Assembly: GCA_903929755.1 (NCBI GenBank)
Contig: CAIYVZ010000114.1
Span: 1-64,000 of the forward strand
Source: an uncultured Acidobacteriia bacterium
GTDB taxonomy: Bacteria > Acidobacteriota > Terriglobia > Bryobacterales > Bryobacteraceae
Direction of reading: 5' to 3'
DNA length: 64,000 nt
Numbering within the stretch: the first letter of the stretch is position 1; each line of letters begins with the position of its first letter. A program made the translations under genes and the position numbers. Positions 42,508 through 51,231 of the stretch are shown here, piece after piece. The notes beneath the pieces were generated by a model. It did no database searches and was not told the DNA's origin. It was given only the letters and a program-made list of their open reading frames with translations.

Positions 42508-43188
42508 TTATATCGAATGCAGTTCGCGGCGCAGCGAGTCGATTTCGCGCTGAGCCGTTTCCTGATGCTGCCGGATCAGGATAAGTGCGGTGCAGATGAG
42601 GAAAACAGCCAGAACGCCCAGCCCGAAGGGGGCGCGGAATTCCGGGGCCATGGTGCCGGTTTCCAGAACCGGGCCGGGGTGTTGTGTGCGCACGTTCGGC
42701 AGGCGGATGGCCATAAGAACGAGCGGAATATCGGCGTAGGCAAAGATGGCGACGAAGGCCGAAAGCGTGGCCCGCTGCGTGGGCTCGGCAATGGCAGGGC
42801 GGACCAGCAGGTAGCCGAGATAGAGCAGGAAACACATGAGCTGACTGGTCATGCGGAGGTCCCACGCCCACCAGATGCCCCACTGGTTGCGGCCCCAGAT
42901 GCTGCCGGTGACCAGGTTGACCACCACGAGCATGGTGCCCACCTCAATGCAGGAGACCGAAATGGAGTCCCACAGAAAATTCTTCTTCACCAGGAAGAGG
43001 ATGCTGGTGACCAGGGAAACCGTGAAGAAGACCTGCGCGTTGATGGCCGCCGGAACGTGGATGAAGATGATGCGGTAAATAGCCCCCTGCATGGCTTCGT
43101 CGGGCAGGCCCATGAAGACCGTTTTCAGGTTGGGGATCATGACCAATGCGGCCAGAATTGCCAGGATGTAGATCGCTTTTTCTCGCAT
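42508..43188 (-). CDS. ccmC: Heme lyase/exporter subunit CcmC
   Basis: 226 residues with about six helices. WGIWWAWDLRMTSQLMCFLL is the tryptophan-rich WWD heme-handling motif. IIFIHVPAAINAQVFF and IEVGTMLVVVNLVTGSIWG hold the flanking His ligands. CcmC loads heme onto CcmE. It is 10 bases after ccmB. Confidence 0.95.
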   Translation of the reverse strand: MREKAIYILAILAALVMIPNLKTVFMGLPDEAMQGAIYRIIFIHVPAAINAQVFFTVSLVTSILFLVKKNFLWDSISVSCIEVGTMLVVVNLVTGSIWGRNQWGIWWAWDLRMTSQLMCFLLYLGYLLVRPAIAEPTQRATLSAFVAIFAYADIPLVLMAIRLPNVRTQHPGPVLETGTMAPEFRAPFGLGVLAVFLICTALILIRQHQETAQREIDSLRRELHSI

Positions 43189-43198
43189 TCGTTTCTCC

Positions 43199-43897
43199 TC
43201 AGACTATCAGGATGAACTCAATCATGTAGAGCGCCAGGGACGTATAGATGACGTCGAACCCGATCAGGAGGCGGAGGGAGGCGAAGGCTTCTCCCGTCGC
43301 CCCTGGGCCAAACATAGGTTCTCCCTGCAACAGGGCCGTGGTGGTGCCCATCGCGCCGATCAGCAACGGGATCAGGATGGGGTAAAGCAGGACGGGCAAC
43401 ATCAGTTCGCGCAGGCGGATGTTGACGGTGACTGCCGAGAACGCAGTGCCGACGACCGTGATGCCCCAGGTGGCAAGCGCCATCACGAGCAGCAGGCCGG
43501 GAAAATTCTGCGTCCAGTGGATGTTGTAAAAAAGGCCGAAGACGGGCAGCGAAATCAGTTCGACGATGAAGAGCAGGAAGAAGGCTGCAACGGACTTGCC
43601 GAGGAAGATGGACCAGGCGGGGGCGGGGGAGGCGATCAGCACGTCGAGGCAGTCGTTGGGCAGTTCGCGGGCGAAGCTGCGGTTGACGATGAGGGCTCCG
43701 GCGAACGAGAACACGAGCCAGAGCAGGCCGCCGGCGATGGCGTAGAGTTCTTCGCGGCCAAGGTCGAAGGCGAAGCTGAACAGGACGAGGATGACGAGCG
43801 CGAAACTGGCGCTGGCGTTGATGGATTCCTTGGTCCGGAGTTCGGTCTGGAGATCTTTCCTCGCGATGGCGAGGGCGGTGAGGAGGCCTCTGTTCAT
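43199..43897 (-). CDS. ccmB: Heme exporter CcmB
   Basis: 232 residues with six to seven helices. IARKDLQTELRTKESINASA is the characteristic CcmB N-terminus, and LPVLLYPILIPLLIGAM the later conserved stretch. It is the transmembrane subunit of the CcmAB ABC complex that releases holo-CcmE. It starts directly at the ccmA stop. Confidence 0.93.
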   Translation of the reverse strand: MNRGLLTALAIARKDLQTELRTKESINASASFALVILVLFSFAFDLGREELYAIAGGLLWLVFSFAGALIVNRSFARELPNDCLDVLIASPAPAWSIFLGKSVAAFFLLFIVELISLPVFGLFYNIHWTQNFPGLLLVMALATWGITVVGTAFSAVTVNIRLRELMLPVLLYPILIPLLIGAMGTTTALLQGEPMFGPGATGEAFASLRLLIGFDVIYTSLALYMIEFILIV

Positions 43898-44608
43898 TTA
43901 TTCAGCCACCTGCCTGTCGCCATAGGTTCGGTAGAGCCATCCGGGGTCACCCAGCATTTCGGGGGTTTGCGGTCCGGTATGAACGATCTTGCCACGCTCC
44001 AGGAGCGCCACGTCGGTGGCCAGTTCCATGGCTTCACGGATCTGGTGGGTGGACATGACGATGGTGGAACCGCGCGCGAGGGCGTCTTTCAACAGCGACT
44101 GCAGCACGGCGATGGCGCGGTCATCGAGTGAGGTAAACGGTTCGTCGAGCAGGAGGAGTTCGGGTTGGTGCAGAAACGCCCGGGCGACTGCGAGGCGCTG
44201 GCGCATGCCACGGGAAAATTCACGGGCCATGCCGTCCTTCACCCGTTCCAGGCCGACGCGTTCCAGGGCTTCGATTGCCGCTTTTTGCGGATTCTCCACG
44301 CCCAGCAGACGGCCGAACAGCAGGAGATTTTCCATGGCGGAAAGATCGTCGTAAACGCCGATGCCATGCCCCAGATAGCCGGTCTTGCGGCGGACGACGT
44401 CTCCGCGCGAGGCGTCACCGAATATCTTCACTTCGCCACGCGTGGCGCGGGAGAGATTGGCGAAGATGCGCAGCAGCGTAGTTTTGCCGGCCCCGTTGCG
44501 ACCCAGCAGAGCCATGCAGGCGCCTTGCGGTACCTGGAGACTGCTGCCGCGCAGGGCAGGGTAGTCCCCAAAGTACTTCCAGACGCGATCAGCTTCGACC
44601 GCGAGCAT
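43898..44608 (-). CDS. ccmA: ABC transporter ATPase CcmA
   Basis: 236 residues from ATG 44608 (MLAVEADRVWKYFGDYPALR). The frame extends upstream, but that part has no family similarity and lies in the previous gene. Walker A is LLGRNGAGKTT, the signature FSRGMRQRLAVARAF, Walker B LLLLDEPF and the switch STHQ. It overlaps the upstream carboxypeptidase-regulatory-like gene by 20 bases. Confidence 0.94.
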   Translation of the reverse strand: MLAVEADRVWKYFGDYPALRGSSLQVPQGACMALLGRNGAGKTTLLRIFANLSRATRGEVKIFGDASRGDVVRRKTGYLGHGIGVYDDLSAMENLLLFGRLLGVENPQKAAIEALERVGLERVKDGMAREFSRGMRQRLAVARAFLHQPELLLLDEPFTSLDDRAIAVLQSLLKDALARGSTIVMSTHQIREAMELATDVALLERGKIVHTGPQTPEMLGDPGWLYRTYGDRQVAE

Positions 44609-45722
44609 TCTTGGAGGCTTTCCTTCCGGCCGCGGCTTCTGCCGCCGCTTCCTTTGCTGCCTGTGCCTGGGCGGCCGGTACCGTCTTCCGGTACAACAAA
44701 ACGAAGCCAAGCGTCAGCATGAAGAATATGCTGAGCAGGATCCATTTGACCGCCAGTGCCGTGGTCCAGAAATCGGCTGAGCCGAGCGCCAGACCGTAGA
44801 GTCGGGGCAGGTTCATGGTGAGTGCCGGCTGGCCGGTGCCGCTTTCGCCACCACCGCCTCCACCACCCTCGCCACCGCCCGCAGGCGCGGAATCGGCCAG
44901 CGAACCGGCACCTTCCACCTGGAACTTGATGGTGGGGCCGTCAGCGCCCCAAATGGTTGCCTTGGTGCGGGGCTCCTGGCCGAGATTCTTCAGGCTGTCG
45001 CCTTTGAACGTAACGCCAACCGGCGCGATGATTCTGGTCTGGCCACCCTTGCTCAGAATCTGGTAGACGAAGTCAGCAGGCGTCTTGAAGGGCATGGTCC
45101 ACTGCATGTCCACGCGGGATTCGCCGGGTTTAATGGGGAAATCGAGCTTAAAGGTGTTCGGCTTCGGACCTGCATCCGGAGCTTTCCGCAGCGGCAGGCC
45201 GCCGGGAGCCAGAGCGTTGACCTCCACCTTGCCCTGCGCGGCCGCGGGCAGCGCAAACTGCAGCGTGCCGGCGTCGGGATTGTTCCACGTCGTCTTCCCG
45301 TCGTTGCGGAAGACGTAGCTTTCGCTCACCGTCAGGTTGCCATCCGCCGAAGGTTCCAGCAGGATCATGTGCTGGTCGATTTTGGCTCCGCCAGCTGCTT
45401 TCGATGACTCGAAAACAGGGATTTCCACTGCGGTGAGCGGTGAGCCGGGGGGCAGCATCTTGTTGTACTGCACGCCGCCGTAAACTGCCTGAAGCAGCAG
45501 CGGTCCGCCGCCACGCCCCGGAGCCACATCTTCGGTGAAGACGAACTTACCTTGTGCGTCGGTCTTGACGCTGTTCAGAAATTGCGGGCCCTGCTGGCTG
45601 GTCTGGAACAGGGTAACGGTTGCGCCGGAAGCCGGCTTGCCGGACGTGGCGTTGGTCACGATGCCGTCAACACCAGCTATCGCAAAGGGGGCACAGACAA
45701 GAAGGGCGGTAAATAGCCTCAC
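44589..45722 (-). CDS. Membrane-anchored carboxypeptidase-regulatory-like protein inside the ccm operon
   Basis: 377 residues from GTG 45722, sharing one base with the previous stop (TAGTG). A signal peptide, a CarboxypepD_reg-like beta-sandwich (GIVTNATSGKPASGATVTLF, KTDAQGKFVFTEDVAPG), further beta domains, a Gly-rich linker (GGGEGGGGGGGESG) and one C-terminal membrane helix (AVKWILLSIFFMLTLGFVLL) followed by an Ala/Lys-rich tail. Its conserved position between ccmI-like and ccmA suggests a role in cytochrome c maturation, but none is known. Confidence 0.82.
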   Translation of the reverse strand: MRLFTALLVCAPFAIAGVDGIVTNATSGKPASGATVTLFQTSQQGPQFLNSVKTDAQGKFVFTEDVAPGRGGGPLLLQAVYGGVQYNKMLPPGSPLTAVEIPVFESSKAAGGAKIDQHMILLEPSADGNLTVSESYVFRNDGKTTWNNPDAGTLQFALPAAAQGKVEVNALAPGGLPLRKAPDAGPKPNTFKLDFPIKPGESRVDMQWTMPFKTPADFVYQILSKGGQTRIIAPVGVTFKGDSLKNLGQEPRTKATIWGADGPTIKFQVEGAGSLADSAPAGGGEGGGGGGGESGTGQPALTMNLPRLYGLALGSADFWTTALAVKWILLSIFFMLTLGFVLLYRKTVPAAQAQAAKEAAAEAAAGRKASKNARGRS

Positions 45723-46165
45723 TAAGCCACCTCGCCTTTAGCCAAAATTGGTTTACCGCATTCTCCGCAGAATTTTAAAGCTTTCTCAAACTGCGCGCCG
45801 CAGCTGGGGCAAACATTCTTTTTCACGGCGACAGGAGTCGGCGCGGGGACTGCCATTGCGGGCGCAGCCGACCTGCCGGGGAGTTGGCCCAATTCGAGCT
45901 TCAAACGATCTTCCTCGGCTCTCACCTTTGCCAGTTCCTTCTGGAGTTCAATCTTGGTGGTGTTGTAATCCTCGTCGGACAACTTGTCGAGGCGATACTC
46001 AAACTGCAGATCCCGCAGGTTCTCGTAGATGGCGGCTTTTCGCTCATCCAGATGGCGGAAGGGGGAGACGGGGGCTGCTTTCGGCAGGTCGCCAGGGCGA
46101 ATGAGCACAAGGTAGCCGACCATTGCGGCTCCAAGCAAGGCTCCAAAGATCAGGCTAGGATCCAC
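45722..46165 (-). CDS. CcmI-like zinc-ribbon membrane protein
   Basis: 147 residues. An N-terminal membrane helix (LIFGALLGAAMVGYLVLI), then a helical segment (ENLRDLQFEYRLDKLSDEDY) that matches the CcmI/CycH coiled-coil start, then a Pro-rich linker and a C-terminal zinc ribbon CPSCGAQF...CGECGKP. It lacks the TPR domain of full CcmI. It follows ccmH by 8 bases. Likely a substitute for CcmI in apocytochrome handling (inference). Confidence 0.75.
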   Translation of the reverse strand: MDPSLIFGALLGAAMVGYLVLIRPGDLPKAAPVSPFRHLDERKAAIYENLRDLQFEYRLDKLSDEDYNTTKIELQKELAKVRAEEDRLKLELGQLPGRSAAPAMAVPAPTPVAVKKNVCPSCGAQFEKALKFCGECGKPILAKGEVA

Positions 46166-46173
46166 TTAGTTAG

Positions 46174-46689
46174 TTATTCCAGTCTTTCCGTATCCCGTTC
46201 GATCTCGGCGCGATACTTCGCATAGACCGGATCTTCGGGTTCGAGAGGTGCGCCACCGGCACTGGGGTGACCAGCTGCGGCGGGCTGAAGCGATTGCGGG
46301 CCCCGCATCTTCCGGATCACAACCCACACCACACCGCCGCCAACCAGCAGCGACAGGTACGGGATCATCCAAAAGTACGAACTGGGGTCCTGGCGAAAAA
46401 TCTTCTCGCCATATTCCTTCACAAATGAAGCGACAATGGCCGCGTCGCTCGCGCCATCGTGCTGCATTTGGTAAATCTTCGTCCGGGCCGGTTTACAGAA
46501 ATGACACTGGCCGGAGGACATGTTGCAATTCAGGTTTTCCTGGCACGAACCGCACTGGCAAGAAAGCTTACTGCCGATGCGTTTTACTTCATCGCTTTCA
46601 ATCTGCGATGCGGTCTGGGCGAACGCTGCACCGCTCTGCAGTAACAGAGCGATGAGCAGCAGGGGGAGACTAAACTTCAACCGGCGCAT
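46174..46689 (-). CDS. ccmH: CcmH-like thiol-reducing subunit with six-cysteine motif
   Basis: 171 residues from ATG 46689 (MRRLKFSLPLLLIALLLQSG signal). The frame opens 42 bases earlier. Instead of the usual LRCxxC, the active region reads LSCQCGSCQENLNCNMSSGQ followed by CHFC: C44, C46, C49, C55, C62, C65. The helix AIVASFVKEYGEKIFR and a C-terminal membrane helix match CcmH. It overlaps the ccmF end by 20 bases. CcmH reduces or presents the CxxCH thiols of apocytochromes. Confidence 0.85.
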   Translation of the reverse strand: MRRLKFSLPLLLIALLLQSGAAFAQTASQIESDEVKRIGSKLSCQCGSCQENLNCNMSSGQCHFCKPARTKIYQMQHDGASDAAIVASFVKEYGEKIFRQDPSSYFWMIPYLSLLVGGGVVWVVIRKMRGPQSLQPAAAGHPSAGGAPLEPEDPVYAKYRAEIERDTERLE

Positions 46690-48676
46690 TTGCTTTGGCC
46701 ACTCCCACAACTTCCGTCCGCGTATAGGCACGCGCGACTTTGCTCGGCACCAGGCACACCAGCGTGCCGCCGATTACAACCAGAATACCGATCCAGATCC
46801 ATTCGACTAACGGGAAGACATACGCCTGCAGCGTAGCTTTGTCGCCGCTGCGCGCCGCGTAGTTGATGTACAGATCTTCGTTCAGGCGGCTGCGGAGAGC
46901 AACCACCGCAGTTGCCTGCTGTGCTGCCTTGTAGAAGCGCCGAGTCGGTTCCACGATTTCCAGGAATTCACCATTCTTCGTGACTTCCAGCTTGGCCGTC
47001 TCCCACGAATAGTTGGACATTTCGCCTTCCGTGAGATCCAGAACCTTCAGCTTGTAAGAACCAACCTGCATCACAGCGCCCTTGGCTACTTCGCCGACGG
47101 CGGTCTGATTGAAGGGGTGTCCGCTCCAGCCGATGAACAGCAGCACCATGCCCATGTGGACCAGATAGCCGCCGTAGCGTCGCGTGTTGCGGTGCGTGAG
47201 TTCGATAACGGCCGGAATGAAGCCCGATTTCGTCTTCTCACTGATCGCGTTGGCGCCGCGGAAGAATTCGAGCACGATGGTGGCGGTAACGAAGAAGCAG
47301 AGGCTCAAAGAAATGATTGAGTAGGGGTACCGCATGCCAAAGGCGAACAGCGTCGCGGCGGTCACGAGCGTCCCGATACCGGGCCACTGGAAGTTCTTGC
47401 GCAGGCTGTCGATGGAGGTGCGGCGCCAGGCGAACAGCGGTCCAACGCCCGTCAGGAACAGCAGCGCCAGGCCGATCGGCACCATCAGGCGGTTAAACCA
47501 AACCGCGTCCAGGCTGATCTTTTCGTTGGAGAGCTTTTCGGTGATTACGGGGAACAGCGTGCCCCAGAGCACAGCGAAACAGCTGGCCAGCAGGATCAGG
47601 TTGTTAAACAGGAAGCTGGATTCGCGGGAAACAACGCTTTCGAGGTCGGATTCGCTGCGGAGGTAGTTCAGGCGATCCAGAATCAGCCAAACGGTGGACG
47701 CAATGCTCAGCGCGAGGAAAGCGACGAAGTACTTGCCGATCGGCGATTCCGCGAAGGCGTGAACGGAGCTGACAATACCGGAACGCGTCAGGAATGTACC
47801 GAAGATGCAGAGGAAGAACGTGGAGGAGATCAGCACCATGTTCCACACCTTCATCATGCCCTTCTTTTCCTGCATCATGACGGAGTGGAGGAAGGCAGTC
47901 GCGGCGAGCCACGGCAGCAGGGAGGCGTTTTCCACCGGATCCCACATCCAGTAACCGCCCCAGCCCAGCACGTGATAGGCCCATGCCGAGCCCAGACCAA
48001 TGCCCATACCCTGGAACAGCCAGGTCACGATAGACCAGCGACGCGTGGTGTGGATCCAGCTCTCGCCCGGAGCTTTTTCGATGAGCGAGGCCATCGCGAA
48101 GGCGAAGGGAACTGCAAAGCCGACATACCCGAGGTAGAGGAATGGGGGGTGAATCACCATCGCCCAGTACTGCAGCAGCGGATTGAGGCCCATGCCATCG
48201 GCCACCGAGGTGACCACGCGGTCCACCGCCAGAACCTGGAAGGGGCTGGCAATAAACGTGTTCAAAATCAGGAAGAACAGCTGGATTGTGGAGAGGATCG
48301 CCACCACCCAGGGCAGCAGATTCCGGTGAGTTTTCCGCGACGTGAGGACGGCAACGGCGGCATAACTGGAAAGCAGCCAGCTCCAGAAGAGCAGTGAGCC
48401 TTCCTGCCCGCCCCACCATGCGGCGAACTTGTAGAAGCCGGGCATCTCGCGATTGGTGTGGCTGGCCACGTAGGCCATCCGGTAATCGCCTGTCAGCAGC
48501 GCGTAAACAAGTATGCCGGCTGCGGTAGAAACCAGAGCCCAGACGGCGAGGACTGCACGTTCTCCGCTCAAAGTGAGGAACGGCTTCCCTTTCAGCCGCC
48601 CCACAACGCTTGAAACGATCGCGTACAACGAGATGCAGAACGCCAGCAGAAGCGCAAGTGCGCCTACGTTTTCCAT
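46670..48676 (-). CDS. ccmF: Cytochrome c heme lyase CcmF
   Basis: 668 residues with about fifteen helices, the normal CcmF size. WGGYWMWDPVENASLLPWL is the WWD domain. WAMVIHPPFLYLGYVGFAVP and TRSGIVSSVHAFAESPIG are flanking signatures with conserved His. CcmF ligates heme from holo-CcmE to the apocytochrome presented by CcmH. It overlaps ccmH by 20 bases and follows ccmE by 57 bases. Confidence 0.96.
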   Translation of the reverse strand: MENVGALALLLAFCISLYAIVSSVVGRLKGKPFLTLSGERAVLAVWALVSTAAGILVYALLTGDYRMAYVASHTNREMPGFYKFAAWWGGQEGSLLFWSWLLSSYAAVAVLTSRKTHRNLLPWVVAILSTIQLFFLILNTFIASPFQVLAVDRVVTSVADGMGLNPLLQYWAMVIHPPFLYLGYVGFAVPFAFAMASLIEKAPGESWIHTTRRWSIVTWLFQGMGIGLGSAWAYHVLGWGGYWMWDPVENASLLPWLAATAFLHSVMMQEKKGMMKVWNMVLISSTFFLCIFGTFLTRSGIVSSVHAFAESPIGKYFVAFLALSIASTVWLILDRLNYLRSESDLESVVSRESSFLFNNLILLASCFAVLWGTLFPVITEKLSNEKISLDAVWFNRLMVPIGLALLFLTGVGPLFAWRRTSIDSLRKNFQWPGIGTLVTAATLFAFGMRYPYSIISLSLCFFVTATIVLEFFRGANAISEKTKSGFIPAVIELTHRNTRRYGGYLVHMGMVLLFIGWSGHPFNQTAVGEVAKGAVMQVGSYKLKVLDLTEGEMSNYSWETAKLEVTKNGEFLEIVEPTRRFYKAAQQATAVVALRSRLNEDLYINYAARSGDKATLQAYVFPLVEWIWIGILVVIGGTLVCLVPSKVARAYTRTEVVGVAKANAPVEV

Positions 48677-48733
48677 GATTTTTTTGGACCCTCAGCTTTA
48701 CAAAAGTTACTTAACAGCTTACACATGAGCAGC

Positions 48734-49195
48734 TTACAAGCTGGAACGGTACGACGAACTCTGGGCTTCCGGCACCAGCTTCTTCTGCAAACCCTCCGGA
48801 GCCTGGCCCGGTTTCGGTGCATACTTCGAAGCGCATTTCGCCTGAACTTCCTGAGCGTGGAACACGCCGGAATCGTCGAGACGTCCGCCAGCCAACGCCT
48901 GCGCGCCGTCTTTAAAGGTATCGGGCAGAGGATCGCGGCCTTCGTACACCACCGACAGAACCTTCGTTTCCTGGACCAGATTGAACTTCACAACACCGGC
49001 GGTGCGGACAATCGAGTTTTGCTGGATATCGCCGCCCACACGGACCCGCTTCGACGAAGCCTGGTGGCCCATCTTGTTTAATTCGGTGATCGTGACGTAA
49101 TAGGTCTTCGAGCTCTGAATGGAAGCGGTTGCGACCCATACCAGCGAACCGACGATGAGCGTGATCAGGATTCCGAACTTTGCGTACTTGTGCAT
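48734..49195 (-). CDS. ccmE: Heme chaperone CcmE, Cys variant
   Basis: 153 residues with an N-terminal anchor helix (FGILITLIVGSLVWVATA) and the OB-fold (KRVRVGGDIQQNSIVR, VYEGRDPLPDTFKDG). The heme-binding motif normally written HxxxY is AKCASKY here (C121, Y125), so the covalent ligand His is replaced by Cys. Such CxxxY CcmE proteins are known from Desulfovibrio and archaea. A good ribosome site (AGGAAAGAAGGG) precedes the ATG. It is the first gene of the ccm operon. Confidence 0.95.
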   Translation of the reverse strand: MHKYAKFGILITLIVGSLVWVATASIQSSKTYYVTITELNKMGHQASSKRVRVGGDIQQNSIVRTAGVVKFNLVQETKVLSVVYEGRDPLPDTFKDGAQALAGGRLDDSGVFHAQEVQAKCASKYAPKPGQAPEGLQKKLVPEAQSSSYRSSL

Positions 49196-49290: not shown

Positions 49291-49932
49291 CTAAAGCCAA
49301 TGGCTGCCCTCGGAATGGCACAACAAGCATGCCTCACGGGCCGACGAGCCTTCTGCCGGAACCGCTGCGAAAATATTTTCACCCTGCGACCATGAAACCA
49401 TTTCGGACCCTGCCCGCGTTGCCTCATGCCTGCCTGTAAAGGGTTTCCCGCTTTTCCAGACCAGCATTGTGCCTCCCCGTTCGGAGTTGTCACCAGCTTC
49501 ATATCTCACTGAAGCAACCAACGTGCCACGGATATTGGCGATTCTGGCTCCAGTCACTCGCGCGGAGGGGGAGTGAGCCGGAAGCTCTAACTCTATGCCA
49601 CTGTGGGACTTAATCCATTGGCGGATGTGGACGGGGTCATTCGAGTTCAACTCGCAGGCTTCCGGAGAAGCTGCAAGTGCCGCAAGTTCTGCCGCGTCCG
49701 GTTGCGCGATTTGGCGCAAACCACCCCGGGCCTTGCTGAACTCCCAAAGCAGATCGGCCGACGCCAGCAGCATAAGGAGCGCGATTGCCGGCCACAATAG
49801 CCGGGTCGGGTCCGATTCAGCGCGGCGCCCTGCCCCCGGTGCCTGGATTTTGCTCCAAAGCCCCGCTGGTGCCGATACCGGACGCAGTTGTTCCCGCAAG
49901 TTTACTTCCAGCCAACTGTCTTCGGCCATCAT
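49291..49932 (-). CDS. Membrane anti-sigma factor with C-terminal CxxCH heme motif
   Basis: 213 residues. A short cytoplasmic N-terminus (~45 residues, no zinc HxxxCxxC motif), one membrane helix (LLWPAIALLMLLASADLLWE) and a ~145-residue periplasmic part. The periplasmic region (VRYEAGDNSERGGTMLVWK, GSEMVSWSQGENIFAAVP) resembles the C-terminal domain of RsgI/FecR-like anti-sigma factors. It ends EACLLCHSEGSHWL: C202, C205, H206, a CxxCH c-type heme attachment motif plus a further His. Its ATG overlaps the ECF sigma stop. It lies directly upstream of ccmE. Confidence 0.85.
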   Translation of the reverse strand: MMAEDSWLEVNLREQLRPVSAPAGLWSKIQAPGAGRRAESDPTRLLWPAIALLMLLASADLLWEFSKARGGLRQIAQPDAAELAALAASPEACELNSNDPVHIRQWIKSHSGIELELPAHSPSARVTGARIANIRGTLVASVRYEAGDNSERGGTMLVWKSGKPFTGRHEATRAGSEMVSWSQGENIFAAVPAEGSSAREACLLCHSEGSHWL

Positions 49933-50492
49933 GAGAGCCTCGCTCCAATTCTTTTCTTCAGGCGTTTCTCTAAAATGCTGTGGGCGCGGCTGAGTCTGGA
50001 CGCCACGGTTCCCGGCGGGCAGGCCAGAATTGCCGCGATCTCCTCATAGGGAAGATCCAGCGAGTAGCGCAGGACCACCACCATGCGGAATTCGGGCTCC
50101 AGTTTCGCGATCGCATCCCGCACCAGGCTGCTTTGTTCGGTTCGGAGCAGGTCTTCCAGCGGGCAGCGCGCGGGACTTCTGAGGAATTCGACCAGACTAT
50201 CCACCAGGGGAAGCAGTCGCCGGACCTTCCTTTTGTGGTCAAAACAGGTATTTACCACCACACGGTACAGCCAGGAATCGAAGCCCGAATTGCCCCGGAA
50301 CCCGCCGATGGCGGCGAAAAGTTTCACGAAACTGTCCTGCGTCACATCGTCGGCAGTTGCGGGATCACCCGAATAGCGCAGGGCGATGGTGTAGACGCGG
50401 TCCTTATAAAGGTCGAAGAGCGCTCGCTGCGCTTCCGTCTCGCCCCGGCGGCAAGCGTCAATCAGGCCAGACTGTGTGTCTTCGAGCAGCAA
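49929..50492 (-). CDS. ECF RNA polymerase sigma factor
   Basis: 187 residues from TTG 50492 with GAGG upstream. Region 2 is ALFDLYKDRVYTIALRY..ADDVTQDSFVKLFAAI, and region 4 is LEPEFRMVVVLRYSLDLPYE then PPGTVASRLSRAHSILEKRL. Group assignment is not possible by eye. It is translationally coupled (4-base overlap) to the heme-motif anti-sigma gene, so the two form a sigma/anti-sigma switch. Confidence 0.93.
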   Translation of the reverse strand: MLLEDTQSGLIDACRRGETEAQRALFDLYKDRVYTIALRYSGDPATADDVTQDSFVKLFAAIGGFRGNSGFDSWLYRVVVNTCFDHKRKVRRLLPLVDSLVEFLRSPARCPLEDLLRTEQSSLVRDAIAKLEPEFRMVVVLRYSLDLPYEEIAAILACPPGTVASRLSRAHSILEKRLKKRIGARLS

Positions 50493-50508: not shown

Positions 50509-51231
50509 TTAGACGCCGGAATCGCTGAGATTCTTCCGGGTTTTTTTCGGGTCGCCACCTTTTTTTCGTTCCAGCAGCCAGCCAAGCCCGACAACGCCCA
50601 GGGCGCAGCCAGCTTCGAAACCGTAGTGCAGCGCGGCGGAGGGGTGGAAGGTGGCCTGAAACCAGGGGTCGCCCGCGATCATGTCGCCGCCCACCCGTCC
50701 CAGAATCAGGGAGCCAATCCAGATGATGACCGGATACTTGTCCATCAGTTTCGCCAGCAGACTGCTGGTGAAGGCGACAAACGAAATGCTGAGGATCAGG
50801 CCGAAGATCAAAAGTCCCAGGTTTCCCTTTGAGGCTCCCGCTACCGCCAGAATATTATCCACCGACATCGTAATGTCAGCGACCAGGATCAGCCAGATGG
50901 CGTGCTTCAGGGACTGGACATGATGCTCGGCGCCGACCGCTTCTTCGGCTTCAGTCAGCAGTTTCACTGCGATCCAGAGGATGACCAGACCGCCCCCCAG
51001 CCTGAGGAACTGGACCTGCAATAGCTGTGAGGCGAAAAACGTCAGAACAATGCGGAGGACCACCGCCGCCCCGGTCCCGAACAAAATACCCAGCTTCCGC
51101 TGCTTGTCCGGCAGGGATTTGACTGCGAGCGCGATGACGACGGCGTTATCGCCGCCCAGCAGGACGTCGATCAGAATGATCGAGAGGGCGTCCAGGAAGA
51201 AAGTCGAGGTGATCGCGGGTATCGACGGCAC
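50509..51231 (-). CDS. TerC-family membrane protein (YjbE-type metal exporter)
   Basis: 240 residues from GTG 51231 with about seven helices. DVLLGGDNAVVIALAVKSLP and DITMSVDNILAVAGASKGN are the paired GGDNA/DN motifs of TerC/YjbE. Family members export Mn2+ or assist metalation of exported proteins. It lies 16 bases upstream of the ECF sigma gene on the same strand. No yybP-ykoY riboswitch is seen before it; the upstream DNA is a gene remnant. Confidence 0.88.
   Translation of the reverse strand: MPSIPAITSTFFLDALSIILIDVLLGGDNAVVIALAVKSLPDKQRKLGILFGTGAAVVLRIVLTFFASQLLQVQFLRLGGGLVILWIAVKLLTEAEEAVGAEHHVQSLKHAIWLILVADITMSVDNILAVAGASKGNLGLLIFGLILSISFVAFTSSLLAKLMDKYPVIIWIGSLILGRVGGDMIAGDPWFQATFHPSAALHYGFEAGCALGVVGLGWLLERKKGGDPKKTRKNLSDSGV

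Follow-up and report, generated by a model that had tools for sequence, protein, structure and literature searches.

Putative membrane anti-sigma factors with a conserved C-terminal c-type heme motif in Acidobacteriota

The 64,000-nucleotide stretch of DNA analysed here (the window) encodes, next to genes of cytochrome-c assembly, a membrane protein that is coupled to an ECF sigma factor and ends in a CxxCH motif. This motif is conserved in a subfamily found across the Acidobacteriota. The reading that we favor, and consider probable, is that of a membrane anti-sigma factor carrying a c-type heme, the heme serving as a sensor of periplasmic oxidant or of heme-c status and its response releasing the ECF sigma factor. 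Our sequence comparisons suggest that in Acidobacteriota a heme-bearing anti-sigma factor governs genes for cytochrome assembly or peroxide defence.

The sigma factor gene (positions 49929–50492, minus strand; 187 aa, TTG start) begins 16 bases past the stop codon of terC, and Pfam matches both sigma region 2 (Sigma70_r2, E 9e-18) and region 4 (r4_2, E 2e-13) in its ORF. The second gene of the pair (49291–49932, minus strand) was called as an ORF of 213 aa with an ATG start and overlaps the sigma ORF by 4 bases. Hydropathy reaches its maximum at about residues 45–63 (49744–49800, minus strand), a predicted transmembrane segment that appears as a helix of residues 42–68 in a low-confidence structure model. 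The c-type heme attachment motif, CLLCH, occupies residues 202–206 (49315–49329, minus strand) and is followed by seven residues, the C-terminus reading EACLLCHSEGSHWL; given the single hydrophobic segment, the motif would lie on the periplasmic side. ORFs and hydropathy thus agree with the first-pass annotation, which had described a 213-residue protein with one transmembrane helix, ending in CxxCH and coupled to an ECF sigma gene by a 4-base overlap. The window protein matches no Pfam family, zf-HC2 included. The name anti-sigma is used because of the gene coupling, the one transmembrane segment, and the existence of relatives with zf-HC2: this domain is found N-terminally and above cut-off in all three CxxCH relatives scanned (L036, L075, and L082) and also in two sisters without CxxCH (L054 and L059). 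We infer that the window protein is a membrane anti-sigma factor and that it would bind the adjoining sigma factor. Neighbor clustering covered 49 CxxCH loci, nine loci having lost the anti-sigma ORF in crude gene calling; with this crude calling, 36 of the 49 contain a member of the sigma cluster, as the preceding gene in 33.

Genome searches covered the Acidobacteriota. A match to the anti-sigma protein was found in 21 of 201 genomes (its own included), and 19 of the 21 reading frames have CxxCH near the end; of the two frames without it, L018 runs off the end of its contig and L021 is of the motif-less type. Named relatives lie on three MAG contigs labelled Terriglobia or Bryobacterales, an order of Acidobacteriota. 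When the window protein is aligned with 18 homologs (23–70% identity to it), C202, C205, and H206 are the only invariant columns, and the xx positions vary, as in cytochromes c. The C-terminal CxxCH is therefore conserved among homologous anti-sigma factors, the point that the first-pass annotation had proposed to check, and its occurrence by chance is ruled out because C, C, and H are the sole invariant columns in the 19 sequences. A profile search of the PDB gave no convincing relative: two designed proteins matched the N-terminal half (E 0.004), and reaction-centre cytochromes matched weakly around the motif (E 0.046).

The set was widened by scanning 399 genomes of the class and 396 of the phylum with profiles, seven candidates per genome being scored. 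The collection comprises 58 CxxCH members across the phylum, the window included, and 19 relatives that have the same domain with an ordinary last helix. Because CxxCH was the criterion by which the 58 were chosen, its presence in all of them carries no weight as evidence; the motif lies within the last 50 residues in 57 of them. Classification applies to these extracted matches (58 + 19), so the genome counts are no census. L018 is in neither group, the short N-terminal-only matches L066, L067, and L069 were omitted from the non-CxxCH group, and the script did not locate the second G508 match (L152), L154, and L157. In three members (L014, L017, and L068) the periplasmic domain is largely lost and CxxCH is retained.

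A tree was built without the motif columns from 51 CxxCH rows and 19 other rows, the seven shortened CxxCH members being left out. It shows two changes of type, against a shuffled mean of 16.8, and 0 of 500 shuffles were as low; a subfamily has thus kept the motif as a stable trait. A single CxxCH row on a long branch, L093, accounts for the second change; it sits beside motif-less rows. Relatives with the same periplasmic domain but without CxxCH had been named beforehand as a sign that the motif is coincidental. There are 19 such relatives, but none falls among the CxxCH rows on the tree, so coincidence is not borne out and a defined subfamily is indicated instead. The motif-less type as a single clade is not rejected (p-AU 0.49), and gain and loss of the motif are indistinguishable on the tree.

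The structure model of the window protein was built from four sequences and is of low confidence (pLDDT 62.7, pTM 0.52). It has two helices, six strands, and a short last helix (residues 199–205) that holds most of CxxCH. Searched with this weak model, Foldseek gave RseB and MucB as best fold matches, with a probability of up to 0.98 but E values of 0.07 or worse and a TM of about 0.3. No Cache protein is described among the 50 fold matches listed for the weak model, and the proteins scanned with Pfam (the window protein and relatives) gave no RseB/MucB-type match. As for the heme ligands, an extra histidine, H211, had been put forward as a possible distal ligand. This residue is kept only in the window protein and its three closest relatives and falls in no conserved column of the wider alignment, and we have abandoned it as a conserved ligand. 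His169 (49426–49428, minus strand) is likewise invariant in the four closest sequences, and a histidine is present in the loop before the last conserved Trp in 51 of 58 CxxCH members versus 9 of 19 sisters, with seven CxxCH members having none in this loop. H169 is the better, though unproven, candidate for the distal ligand.

In the window, the gene order on the minus strand is terC, sigma, anti-sigma, ccmE, ccmF, ccmH-like, ccmI-like, a gene for a protein with a carboxypeptidase-regulatory-like domain, and ccmA-, ccmB-, and ccmC-like genes. The gene for the heme chaperone CcmE (48734–49195; PF03100, E 3e-24) had been placed 96 bases beyond the anti-sigma gene on the same strand; order and strand stand, and the gap is 95 bases. 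It is followed by ccmF (46670–48676; PF16327, CcmF_C, E 7e-55), by a ccmH-like gene (46174–46731; NrfF model, E 7e-6, below its cut-off) that forms a neighbor cluster in nine loci, and by a ccmI-like gene with a zinc ribbon (45722–46165; ccmI model, E 0.002, below its cut-off). The genes for a ccmA-like ABC ATPase (43898–44710, its listed TTG start probably too early), a ccmB-like protein (43199–43897), and a ccmC-like protein (42508–43188), all on the minus strand, were named from their translations and form recurrent neighbor clusters. The terC-family gene upstream of sigma (50509–51231, minus strand; PF03741) has its own recurrence, its cluster being found upstream of the sigma/anti-sigma pair in six loci. 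The window CcmE is of the KCASKY variant, which is invariant across six aligned sequences; the Cys stands where classical CcmE has its heme-binding His, and a Cys-type of CcmE has been described as a variant. The CcmH-like protein has, behind its first cysteine cluster, a second one, QCHFC. By eye, no ccmG-like thioredoxin gene was recognized among the ORFs of window positions 42508–49195; thioredoxin-like genes are present elsewhere in the window genome.

CcmE profile coordinates were compared with those of the anti-sigma genes. On this measure the anti-sigma gene is directly followed by ccmE, in the same orientation, in 16 of the 58 CxxCH loci, all of them within the window's family (16 of 28), and ccmF lies behind ccmE in 12 of the 49 clustered loci. 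Conservation of the ccm neighborhood among homologs thus holds for part of the window's family but not for the other 12 of its 28 members, nor for the collected members outside that family.

An ECF-like promoter, GGAAGAA-N15-CGTCTAA, precedes the sigma gene (50509–50537, minus strand) and overlaps the terC stop codon. This strict pattern is the sole match in the window at one mismatch or fewer, with 0.12 expected and at least one match in 9 of 100 shuffles. Across ten genus genomes the strict pattern has nine matches, six of which are at the sigma locus (6 of 10 genomes), and a backwards control has three. In G008, the strict pattern stands directly before a thioredoxin-like gene (TlpA/ResA-like; Pfam AhpC-TSA/Redoxin); 12 of 14 positions are conserved, at an equal distance, in the site before the best match to this gene in G003, and no promoter site was found before the best match in the window genome. 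In G009, a thioredoxin-like gene lies directly behind the anti-sigma gene. A second strict match in the window genome is situated in coding sequence and was rejected as a target. No strict ECF-like site is found directly at ccmE in the window and no terminator-like site on the minus strand between 48600 and 50700; the ccm genes would therefore be reached by read-through. Nevertheless, ccmE may have its own promoter, a TATACT box that was seen by eye but not reported by the scan.

Loci of other classes have a different pattern, GGAATAA-N15-GTTAT, with nine matches in eight genomes, eight of them at the sigma/anti-sigma locus, and one match for the control pattern; in three of the eight genomes it is present on both strands. 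A looser form, GGAAT-N17-GT[TG]N[TA], was scored in 12 loci hand-picked by eye from the 40 (of 58) in which the script located the sigma gene. Of the 12, 10 have it before sigma and 7 have it on the divergent strand (shuffles averaged 0.04 and 0.05, respectively), and the seven divergent cases face genes for CCP (five), a MauG-like protein (one), and KatG (one). When all 40 loci are counted, 11 have the looser pattern before sigma and 8 have it on the other strand, the window being among the latter and taken for chance. The window-type pattern precedes sigma in 7 of the 40, and a pattern of either kind in 18. A slightly longer pattern gave 33 matches in 396 genomes, most away from the sigma/anti-sigma locus. 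One extra GGAATAA-N15-GTTATT site, at G222:C2:7573-7600, is within 3 kb of a CxxCH locus and lies upstream of a gene whose translation suggests a cupin-like protein.

Heme peroxidases are recurrent neighbors of the subfamily. By tblastn, peroxidase families are present in the stretches of 14 of 57 CxxCH loci (CCP in 8, MauG-like in 4, KatG in 2) versus 0 of 40 sister loci, a zero that partly reflects choice because the families were picked from the CxxCH loci themselves; locus counts are the same at E 1e-5. The stretches compared were mostly 20 kb, and at least 15 kb in 50 of 58 and 31 of 40. At some loci other than the 16 with ccmE, the pair lies beside, and is mostly divergent from, a di-heme CCP_MauG enzyme accompanied by a calcineurin-like phosphatase and a SoxA-like cytochrome. 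At others it lies beside a MauG-like protein (matched by NCBIfam only and weakly, with no Pfam match) or a catalase-peroxidase (KatG) with a signal-like N-terminus. None of the CCP, MauG-like, and KatG families has a match anywhere in the window. For the whole family, the most likely signal is peroxide or a similar oxidant, given that the promoter is shared by unrelated heme enzymes that consume H2O2.

The motif conservation, subfamily structure, gene order, and shared promoter-like motifs observed here are consistent with the following scheme. N-terminal cytoplasmic helices of the anti-sigma protein would hold the ECF sigma factor, and one transmembrane helix would lead to an RseB/MucB-like periplasmic domain whose last helix has been turned into a CxxCH heme site. 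The heme would be loaded by the host's cytochrome-c assembly, Ccm in the window host and System II in some other classes. As a sensory cofactor, this heme would let a periplasmic oxidant, most likely hydrogen peroxide, or else the loss of proper heme-c, alter the domain, and the sigma factor could be freed by conformational change or proteolysis. Free sigma would then transcribe its own operon from GGAAGAA-N15-CGTCTAA and the adjoining ccm genes by read-through. A divergent promoter for heme peroxidases may be fired as well by this circuit in other classes.

For the window's family, a loop in which missing heme-c frees sigma is conceivable because of the adjoining ccm genes. We regard it as possible, if doubtful, that a covalent-heme anti-sigma family spread over the phylum lets heme-c gate the ECF sigma factor and that its members in the window's family are both client and controller of a co-transcribed ccm operon in a homeostatic loop. 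The first-pass annotation had gone some way toward this, making the protein a Ccm client whose heme loading would control sigma, possibly with ccm or cytochrome genes in the regulon. The conserved motif and the adjacency of ccmE in 16 of 28 family members speak for that proposal; since heme peroxidases are the likely output in other classes, a ccm-specific heme-loading sensor is not the sole reading. The explanation closest to it is that the anti-sigma protein is a test client of cytochrome-c assembly, a maturation sentinel. Its apo-form, arising under a shortage of heme or of Ccm capacity, would be degraded or unable to hold sigma, and ccm would be raised by read-through until the protein is reloaded. 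The ccmE and ccmF adjacency fits such an arrangement, as do the promoter-like site before sigma, the stretch behind it in which no terminator-like site was found, and the thioredoxin-like genes of G008, G003, and G009, CcmG belonging to the broad thioredoxin-like class. However, the adjacency is confined to the window's family and incomplete there, and neighbors in other classes are peroxidases that include KatG, which is not known to carry heme c. We judge this explanation unlikely, and prefer the oxidant- or heme-c-responsive anti-sigma factor outlined above.

Heme attachment to that factor would depend on the assembly systems of its hosts. CcmE is present in 48 of the 58 genomes with a CxxCH member and ResB (System II) in all of the remaining 10; in a search that covered 20 of the 58 genomes, ResB was also found in 3 of 10 CcmE-positive genomes tested. 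With some hosts having CcmE and others ResB only, the trait is found alongside either of two assembly systems. CcmE is also present in 47 of 50 comparison genomes, so the host marker is necessary but not discriminating. It is improbable, in our estimation, that the protein has no heme and that CxxCH acts as a thiol/disulfide or metal switch like the zinc motifs of other anti-sigma factors. Redox-active and zinc-binding anti-sigma factors are known, according to the accessible text of a survey (PMC7406223), and the predicted domain is unlike a cytochrome fold, as far as the low-confidence model can be compared. On the other hand, the His that follows CxxC shows the same invariance as both cysteines, every host has a heme-c assembly marker, and the neighbors include cytochrome-assembly genes and heme peroxidases. 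We consider it very improbable that an attached heme binds NO as its ligand or reports on respiratory electron flow, as has been put forward for signalling proteins with heme-bearing Cache domains; those domains have NO-sensor properties (PMC12889525, in its accessible portion), but the neighbors that recur here are H2O2-consuming enzyme families.

Our literature search, largely of journals outside subscription, found no description of a heme- or cytochrome-bearing anti-sigma factor, in agreement with the first-pass annotation, to which none of this kind was known. In the survey of class I anti-sigma factors (PMC7406223), the words heme and cytochrome have no occurrences; the class I zf-HC2 proteins resemble the subfamily through zf-HC2 in L036, L075, and L082 but differ from the window protein, which is without it. 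The ECF/anti-sigma pairs HasI/HasS and HxuI/HxuR are linked to heme, but there heme is sensed by an outer-membrane receptor, and the available portions of two heme reviews describe receptor-based systems alone, HasS/HasI among them, and no heme site on the anti-sigma factors (PMC11442138, PMC12670364). The nearest published idea, going by the accessible part of a 2026 preprint, is that of Cache domains with CXXCH (PMC12889525): sCache_heme (DUF3365/Tll0287) is an extracytoplasmic sensor domain with a conserved CXXCH and with sister domains that lack it. The window's family is alike in having an extracytoplasmic domain with conserved CxxCH and motif-less sisters, but the predicted fold of the window protein weakly resembles RseB/MucB rather than Cache, and its output is an anti-sigma factor; the word sigma has no occurrences in the preprint's main text.

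RseA/RseB and MucA/MucB exert membrane anti-sigma control of an ECF factor. RseB and MucB, which act in the periplasm as partners of the anti-sigma factors RseA and MucA, are the best, though weak, fold matches of the predicted periplasmic domain, and the difference is that in the window protein the RseB-like domain would sit within the anti-sigma protein itself, together with CxxCH. If the proposed reading is true, ECF sigma signalling acquires a covalent metal cofactor on its input side, Cache is joined by a second sensor scaffold with a cytochrome motif, and heme itself ties cytochrome-c assembly or periplasmic peroxide defence to transcription.

We also considered whether CxxCH proteins are generally enriched near members of the CxxCH clade, and rejected this: such proteins lie within 5 kb of 18 of 58 members versus 12 of 40 sisters, which is no difference. 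The sister group itself often adjoins other c-type cytochromes, and it may also control cytochromes. At five sister loci (L163, L171, L172, L175, and L192), divergent genes for two-CxxCH proteins are located about 2.5 kb upstream of the anti-sigma gene.
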